Assembly (NCBI GenBank): GCA_026993785.1
Contig: JALWRZ010000013.1
Location: forward strand, 1-43,062
Reading direction: 5' to 3'
DNA length: 43,062 nucleotides
Origin: DHVE2 group archaeon
GTDB lineage: Archaea > Thermoplasmatota > Thermoplasmata > Thermoplasmatales > Aciduliprofundaceae
The translations under genes were made by a program, and so were the position numbers. Shown here in pieces: positions 38,167 to 43,062 of the stretch (positions within the stretch are counted from its first letter, which is position 1; every line of letters starts with the position of its first letter). The notes below the pieces were generated by a model, which was not told where the DNA came from, did not search any database, and saw only the letters and a list, made by a program, of their open reading frames with translations.

Positions 38167-38240
38167 GGGCCGGTAGATCAGCCCGGAAGATCGCTGCCCT
38201 TGCAAGGCAGAGGCCGCGGGTTCAAATCCCGCCCGGTCCA
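38167..38240 (+). tRNA. tRNA-Ala (anticodon TGC)
   Basis: A complete cloverleaf: acceptor GGGCCGG pairs with CCGGTCC, including the G3-U70 wobble that marks alanine tRNAs. The anticodon stem-loop is CTGCC-CTTGCAA-GGCAG with anticodon TGC. The T-loop TTCAAAT is closed by CGGG/CCCG. The discriminator base is A at 38240. No CCA tail is encoded after it and no intron is present. Confidence 0.96.
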
Positions 38241-38500
38241 CTCGTTCGTTTTACTCACTCGTGGACCAGGCTTATGTTCTCCTGTTGTCGAACATCCCGC
38301 CCGGTCCACTTTTCACTACGCTCAAAAGGTTCCGGGCTTACTCTCAAAATTCCTTCTGAATTTTGCTCGTCCCGCCCGATCCACTCTTTGCTTTGCTCAG
38401 TCGCGGATTCGGGCTTAGTCGCATCAAAGATGCTTCTCCCATTCCATCCACTAAAGCCATTTCTTTTAAAAGAAAAGGGATTTACCCCAAAATAAATTTT
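38226..38500 (+). repeat. Tandem ladder of degenerate copies of the tRNA-Ala 3' end
   Basis: The 17 bases covering the end of the tRNA (38226-38242) recur exactly at 38294-38310, with two changes at 38369-38385, and weakly at 38437-38452, a spacing of 68, 75 and 68 bp. In the three clear units GGCTTA occurs at offset 41-43 (38269, 38335, 38412); in the weak fourth, GGATTTA at 38479. Each clear unit has hairpin A formed with the tRNA-like segment, then GGCTTA, then hairpin B at offset 50-52: GTTC/GAAC (38276-38293), CAAAATTC/GAATTTTG (38345-38365), GCATC/GATGC (38421-38433). This fills most of the 388-bp gap after the tRNA; no protein gene is supported in it. Confidence 0.8.
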
Positions 38501-42654: not shown

Positions 42655-43062
42655 GCATGGACCGGAAGGTAGCTTCGGGCGGTTAGTGGCCCACAGGCTG
42701 AACACCTCGCCCGAAGGCTCGGTGCTTACACCCGGGCTCTATCAAACCCGTCTTTTACGGGAGCCCTCAAACGGTGCCTCGTTTCGGGGACCGCTTCGTG
42801 CTTAGATGCTTTCAGCACTTATCGGTACACGGCGTGGCTGCCCGGCAATGCCTTGCCAGACAACCGGTAGACTAGAGGCCGCGGGGCCCCGTTCCTCTCG
42901 TACTAGAGGCCCCTTCCCCTCAGGCACCGAGCACCCCCACGGAAAAGCAACCCTACTGTCTCGCGACGTAGTGAACCCATCTCACGATCCCTTTTAATGG
43001 GCGTACAGCCCCACCCTTGGCAGCTGCTGCACCGCCAGGATAGGGAGAGACGACAACGAAGT
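42655..43062 (-). rRNA. 23S ribosomal RNA, 3' end (partial)
   Basis: The reverse complement contains the sarcin/ricin-loop neighbourhood of domain VI (AGTACGAGAGGAACGGGGCC, at about 42890-42909), then GGCAGCC... and GATAAGTGCTGAAAGCATCT (about 42805-42825), a region conserved in all large rRNAs. The gene continues beyond the right edge. The 3' end is estimated at about 42655-42660, some 22 nt beyond the CTAAC at 42682-42686, by analogy with other 23S genes. The gap to the next gene start is only ~65 bp, too short for 5S rRNA. Confidence 0.95.

Follow-up and report, generated by a model that had tools for sequence, protein, structure and literature searches.

A family-wide system of tandem structured repeats at tRNA 3' ends in DHVE2/Aciduliprofundum archaea, and a proposal for growth by cassette insertion

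Downstream of a tRNA-Ala(TGC) gene in a DHVE2 group archaeon, the 3' end of the tRNA recurs in tandem with two hairpins ahead of every copy, and this raises the question of what builds such a ladder behind an intact tRNA gene. The repeat system at tRNA 3' ends is real and family-wide; the evidence for its structure is strong and that for precise insertion is good. The mechanism that we put forward is a proposal, namely, serial site-specific insertion of tiny non-coding structured mobile cassettes at the exact tRNA 3' end, tRNA-proximal first, and we give it a probability of about 0.5. In the open-access literature, we found no description of the system. The window, i.e., the whole stretch of DNA that was analyzed (43,062 nucleotides), corresponds to contig C13 of an archaeal genome of 1.66 Mb; relatives in its family include Aciduliprofundum and other DHVE2 group archaea, which are Thermoplasmatota according to the NCBI taxonomy. 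An archaeal LSU rRNA has its 3' end at the edge of the window (42663-43062, minus strand).

The array behind tRNA-Ala(TGC)

The original prediction described tRNA-Ala 3'-end copies with two hairpins around GGCTTA, and indeed, both the copies and the stems were recovered (Table 1). The repeated sequence, R, corresponds to tRNA positions 60-73, comprising T-loop position 60, the 3' strand of the T stem, the 3' strand of the acceptor stem and A73. Copies of R follow the tRNA at +68, +143 and, weakly, +210, with spacings of 68, 75 and 67 bp. Hairpin A, GGCTTA and hairpin B precede every downstream copy, and a unit thus begins with hairpin A, goes on with part of the tRNA end in inverted form, then GGCTTA and hairpin B, and closes with R, giving the plan R - a - R' - b - R. 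That hairpin A of the first unit takes in the acceptor strand of the tRNA itself, as predicted, was also borne out. Folding of the 224-nt array gave z values of -5.3 for the sense and -6.8 for the antisense strand, and none of 200 shuffles was as good on either strand.

Table 1. Features of the array in the window
Feature	Position	Strand	Description	Source
tRNA-Ala(TGC)	38167-38240 (end 38240/1)	+	Array anchor	ARAGORN, Rfam RF00005
R0	38227-38240	+	TCCCGCCCGGTCCA, final 14 nt of the tRNA	
Hairpin A1	38235-38267	-	Antisense GGTCCAC-GA-GT-GA-GT-AAA-AC-GA-AC-GA-GTGGACC; arms GGTCCAC (38235-38241) and GTGGACC (38261-38267); tRNA acceptor end within outer stem	
Unit 1	38241-38308	+	68 bp, R1 at its end	
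Hairpin B1	38274-38295	-	Stem ATGTTC/GAACAT, antisense GA/GA internal loop	
R1	38295-38308	+	Same sequence as R0 (14/14)	
Unit 2	38309-38383	+	75 bp, R2 at its end	
Hairpin A2	38309-38328	-	Stem CTTTT (38309-38313)/AAAAG (38324-38328)	
Hairpin B2	38341-38369	-	CAAAATTC/GAATTTTG (38345-38365) in CTCTC..GCTCG frame	
R2	38370-38383	+	13/14 versus R0 (G to A)	
Hairpin A3	38375-38413	-	CCCGATCC (38375-38382)/GGATTCGGG (38405-38413); includes complement of the G-to-A change of R2	
Unit 3	38384-38450	+	67 bp, decayed R3 at its end	
Hairpin B3	38419-38438	-	GCATC/GATGC (stem 38421-38433)	
R3	38437-38450	+	9/14 versus R0, looks oldest of the copies	
Terminator-like inverted repeat	38453-38500	+	AAAGCCATTTCTTTTAAAAGAAAAGGGATTTACCCCAAAATAAATTTT, past the last R	Sequence

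A sequence similar to AAAGCCATTTCTTTTAAAAGAAAAGGGATTTACCCCAAAATAAATTTT also stands directly 3' of array-free tRNA-Ala genes. The same part of the window (38453-38500) holds a AGCCCCTTT..AAAGGTGCTTYACCCCAAA repeat that is found in the trailers L093, L098 and L099 as well as in the tRNA introns L037, L038 and L111, which suggests a common origin of these introns and the dispersed trailer repeat.

Units at other tRNAs and in other genomes

BLAST of the region against 18 genomes of the family placed units behind all three tRNA-Ala isoacceptors in at least five genera. Leu(TAG, GAG, CAA) and Ser(GGA) had downstream units bearing the ends of those tRNAs, and a survey of 185 tRNA genes added Leu(TAA, CAG), Ser(GCT, TGA, CGA) and initiator Met (L328, which is initiator Met by sequence and was called Ser(CGA) automatically). 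A pattern search of 117 genomes of the order yielded one further unit, in G021, which belongs to another family; it too lies at a tRNA-Ala. In the DHVE2/Aciduliprofundum family, 49 distinct units with a uniform length of 58 to 79 bp were collected behind tRNA-Ala, -Leu, -Ser and initiator tRNA-Met, and the ladder is thus part of a repeat family linked to tRNA 3' ends, much as had been considered from the single locus. Whatever the isotype, R in every unit copies the 3' end of its own tRNA. Among the 185 mostly non-Ala tRNAs, R recurred within 450 bp at 14/14 in seven cases, at 13/14 in two and at 12/14 in one, compared with control rates, obtained with the R of other tRNAs, of 0.2%, 0.04% and 0.2%, respectively; over 1.5 kb, 19 of 5025 controls reached at least 13/14. 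Together with the shuffled arrays, these counts put the ladder beyond chance.

Array size ranged from 0 to 4 units or more, with four at tRNA-Ala and Leu(TAA) of G012 and at L196, and units were missing from many tRNA-Ala loci and from entire genomes. The three tRNA-Ala loci of G009 have units in common, and A and B modules are common to different tRNA isotypes and genera. Since several contigs (L145, L146, L155 and L154) terminate within a ladder unit, the assemblies may have collapsed some arrays or may show too few of them. No ladder was found in viral contigs, and bacterial matches to the broad pattern were rejected as chance, their positions being away from tRNAs.

In the array of the initiator tRNA-Met of G012 (L374, downstream of L328), unit 3 is almost the same as unit 1 and the intervening unit 2 is different, which suggests conversion or repeated insertion. 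The Gly(GCC) locus of G012 shows a plain tandem duplication. At a tRNA-Glu(CTC) gene (L040), a second copy of the 5' end, GCTCCGGTGGT, lies about 45 bp upstream, the two being separated by an inverted repeat, and this may be a 5' counterpart.

Hairpin structure, strand and covariation

In hairpin A, the 3' arm is complementary to the final 5 to 6 nt of the local tRNA; the arm pairs are GTCCAC/GTGGAC for Ala, CCGCAC/GTGCGG for Leu, GGCGC/GCGCC for Ser and CGCTAC/GTAGCG for initiator Met. A match of at least 5/6 to the own tRNA was present in 25 of 49 units, compared with 9.4% for other isotypes, and the observed mean was reached by none of 300 permutations. When the inverted arm was compared with the neighboring R copies, it followed the upstream R in five cases and the downstream R in five, with eight ties, i.e., without preference. 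In the 23-nt class of hairpin A (13 sequences, picked by equal length, which is a mild bias), six of eight pairs were altered on both sides, 96.2% of the cells were paired and the GA/GA positions were invariant. Covariation in this class was 0.736, compared with 0.301 after shuffling and at most 0.093 after sliding. The 14-nt A2 alignment was kept out of the evidence because it had been selected by pairing score. The inner pairs of hairpin A (GC/AU/GU and CG/UA) change without regard to which tRNA is present, and therefore tRNA isotype alone does not explain the covariation. That the stem arms differ between units yet remain complementary, first noticed in three units at one locus, was hence upheld in independent units by both the arm match and the covariation.

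What these data add to the earlier account is the strand. The covarying hairpins form better as antisense sequence, in which TC/TC mismatches become GA/GA. The antisense strand had the lower fold energy in 49/49 units and the lower z in 44/49 (unit z of -2.75 antisense and -1.67 sense), and array-free control trailers neither gave a fold signal nor favored a strand (-0.12 and -0.04). Predicted antisense folds contained 61 symmetric GA/GA internal loops, compared with 0 in sense folds and 4.2 in shuffles; the antisense strand folds better because its stems are broken by these loops, the sense strand having TC/TC mismatches. In a G.U against A.C count aimed at telling RNA from DNA, wobble pairs numbered 13 antisense versus 7 sense in the hairpin A stems and were too few for a comparison in the B stems. 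The four-base apical loops are mostly GGAA, GTAA and GGCA. In a search of Rfam, only tRNA reached the threshold.

Relatives of these hairpins are scattered in the same genomes as a two-hairpin element, CGAGC-stem-loop-GCGAG followed by CAA-GCCC-hairpin-GGGC. It had 34 matches in the DNA examined, a few of which are probably chance, and a narrow pattern gave 8 copies in the genome of the window versus 0 for the reversed pattern. At five loci, L248 (tRNA-Gly GCC), L225 (Gly TCC), L279 (Ser TGA), L302 (Ser CGA) and L272 (Ser GGA), a second tRNA 3' fragment lies 3' of the intact tRNA, and in these fragments the T-loop is split by the dispersed element (TTC[AG]-CGAGC...-AATC).

Proposed insertion at base 73 and rival explanations

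In orthologous loci of one genus, the upstream coding sequence, the promoter region and the tRNA align, and divergence begins exactly past GGTCCA, i.e., after base 73. At this point, G007 reads TTAAGCCCC, whereas G013 carries 65 bp, the last bases of which are GGTCCA, ahead of TTAAACCC; the two are a clean empty/filled pair. Synteny via the neighboring flippase gene was uninformative, the tRNA not being conserved at that locus. From the first to the fourth copy, identity of R to R0 was 13.2, 13.0, 10.3 and 10.0 of 14 (with five units only at positions 3 and 4). This outward decay fits entry on the tRNA side followed by ageing and also fits a functional loss of distal copies.

At tRNA-Ser(GGA), 737 bp at 97.2% identity are common to G005 and G016, which belong to different genera; the segment extends from the tRNA as far as the next R, the flanks on either side do not match, and an orthologous locus, for comparison, is 60% identical. 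The 0.64-kb segment (L365:1182-1664, minus strand; L364, about 1763-2499) holds an ORF of 160 aa and a T-arm-like site with the dispersed two-hairpin element; this site is structured on the sense strand, opposite to the ladder units. In G016, the segment is tRNA-proximal, with two ordinary units on its far side. The 160-aa ORF had no match in Pfam, in PHROGs or among plasmids and one weak relative in a viral contig. A segment of 97% identity with unrelated flanks in two genera argues that R-bounded DNA moves, the evidence being one case in two draft assemblies, and we infer that such DNA is inserted at tRNA ends, the ladder units being products of this process that lack an ORF.

In the proposed mechanism, each insertion would set one unit between base 73 and the former downstream sequence and would leave the tRNA intact, duplicating its final 13 to 14 nt. 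A putative recombinase would recognize the folded antisense strand and use R as a short core site. New units would enter beside the tRNA and older ones would decay outward, and most units would be ORF-less cassettes moved in trans. As an insertion would give back the mature tRNA, its effect on the host is probably neutral. Presence or absence of DNA at base 73, R copied from the own tRNA, modules that cross isotypes, paired stem changes with invariant antisense GA/GA and the transfer of the ORF segment all speak for cassette insertion. No recombinase gene was linked to the arrays. Furthermore, the complementarity of units to the local tRNA is unexplained by plain insertion, and thus a secondary process is needed, be it selection, gene conversion or template switching.

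Could the arrays have arisen without a recombinase? If the tRNA 3' end and its trailer were duplicated in tandem, gene conversion between tRNA loci and template switching at quasi-palindromes, by which one arm is corrected from the other, would complete a satellite, and we regard this as unlikely. The R copies offer homology for slippage, and the variable unit number, the identical unit that recurs inside one initiator-Met array, the units shared within G009, the arm that matches the local tRNA, the small number of wobble pairs without clear strand bias and the duplication at Gly(GCC) of G012 all suit it. However, it leaves unexplained the A/B modules at different tRNA isotypes, the transfer of an R-bounded ORF segment and the invariant one-strand GA/GA, since template switching would erase mismatches.

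It is improbable that the antisense strand is transcribed into a functional RNA whose GA/GA hairpins with GNA/GNRA loops act as regulator, decoy or antisense to the tRNA end. Tandem GA, GNRA-type loops and strong covariation are what such an RNA would have, but many tRNA-Ala loci and whole genomes do without units, copies decay, and no Rfam family matched. Moreover, these motifs are also made by single-stranded DNA, in which GNA mini-hairpins have exceptional stability and melt at up to 78°C (PMC4686876). A structured trailer RNA, one of the explanations in the original prediction, is weakened, as it would come from the sense strand, which turned out to be the less structured one. Its elaboration, a 3' trailer with tRNA-like minihelices (acceptor plus T-arm mimics) cut by tRNase Z or RNase P, is quite improbable: R is exactly the T-stem and acceptor 3' strands plus base 73, pairing is possible between it and the arm ahead of it, and past the last R comes a terminator-like sequence, but the sense fold is weaker in every unit and free of GA/GA loops, and the arm favors neither R.

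The 3' ends of tRNA genes are targets of archaeal tyrosine integrases, and the att site of SNJ2 is only 13 to 14 nt long (PMC8371274). As in elements of this type, a short direct repeat of the tRNA 3' end bounds the inserted DNA and the tRNA is restored. Unlike them, the units are gene-free, have a hairpin anatomy and form stacks of up to four or more; no integrase gene was found on the 58- to 79-bp units, nor did the one protein of the ORF segment match Pfam or PHROGs. Stacked attachment sites, as originally suggested, therefore stand in spirit, given the presence/absence at base 73 and the R-bounded mobile ORF segment, but scars of large integrative elements are very improbable in view of the uniform unit length, the common hairpin modules, the recurrence across genera and a window without integrase remnants. 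Least probable of all are stray integration of spacers and target-site duplications made by a casposase, i.e., an integrase of the Cas1 type: the A. boonei casposase does insert at tRNA-Pro with a duplication of 14 to 15 bp in the same organism group, growth would likewise be tRNA-proximal and the family has Cas1 genes, but the duplicated interval is offset, beginning 8 bp past TCAAATC and taking in trailer sequence (PMC6614799), whereas R (60-73) lies upstream of it, no terminal inverted repeats were seen in the units and arrays occur in genomes without detected Cas1, including G001, G012 and G013 (draft assemblies). A casposase origin was rejected on this difference in footprint; a CRISPR array was rejected as well, since the "spacers" are homologous between species and R decays. 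The sole Cas1 of the genome studied here is on a different contig.

Serial cassette insertion resembles two further systems. REP/REPIN palindromes, which are mobilized by RAYT transposases (PMC3733652), are likewise small palindromic repeats with dispersed genomic relatives and structure on one strand, but they do not copy a local tRNA end. A Y1 (HUH) transposase (PF01797) was detected in 2 of 18 family genomes, G002 (no array detected) and G003 (one borderline unit), and was absent from the array genomes G000, G007, G009, G012 and G016; RAYT/IS200 was rejected because array genomes lack the transposase, with G003 as a borderline exception. A GTAG/CGTC tag was not evident by eye in the unit alignments, in which the hairpin foot is TAAG/CAAG. 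Integrons build cassette arrays with attI and attC sites, the latter recognized as a folded bottom strand, and occur in archaea (PMC9668308). Like them, the ladder is a tandem array beside a fixed anchor with presumed growth from the anchor end, its hairpin sites have variable yet complementary stems, and an ORF-bearing cassette was exchanged between genera. Unlike in integrons, a tRNA 3' end serves as anchor, 14 nt of tRNA sequence make up the core and nearly all units are ORF-less. Identity with attC was rejected because the core motif (GTTRRRY/RYYYAAC) is missing from most units, either motif occurring in only 3/49. No integron integrase showed up among the ORFs of the window that neighbor the array, two of which were run against Pfam. 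Tentatively, the arrays may belong to an archaeal cassette-capture system that is integron-like yet unrelated, with tRNA 3' ends as landing site, antisense tandem-GA hairpins as structure-recognized recombination sites and a putative recombinase that would stack ORF-less and ORF-bearing cassettes.

If a recombinase does insert the units, this would be a second way, besides integrons and CRISPR, to stack short DNA in order at a fixed chromosomal site. It would be a testable case of one-strand structure-guided recombination, the arrays sitting at tRNA genes of cultivable thermophiles such as Aciduliprofundum, and would account for tRNA 3' ends as hotspots without harm to the tRNA. Even under template switching, the family would offer a clean natural experiment on the upkeep of palindromes with fixed GA/GA mismatches.
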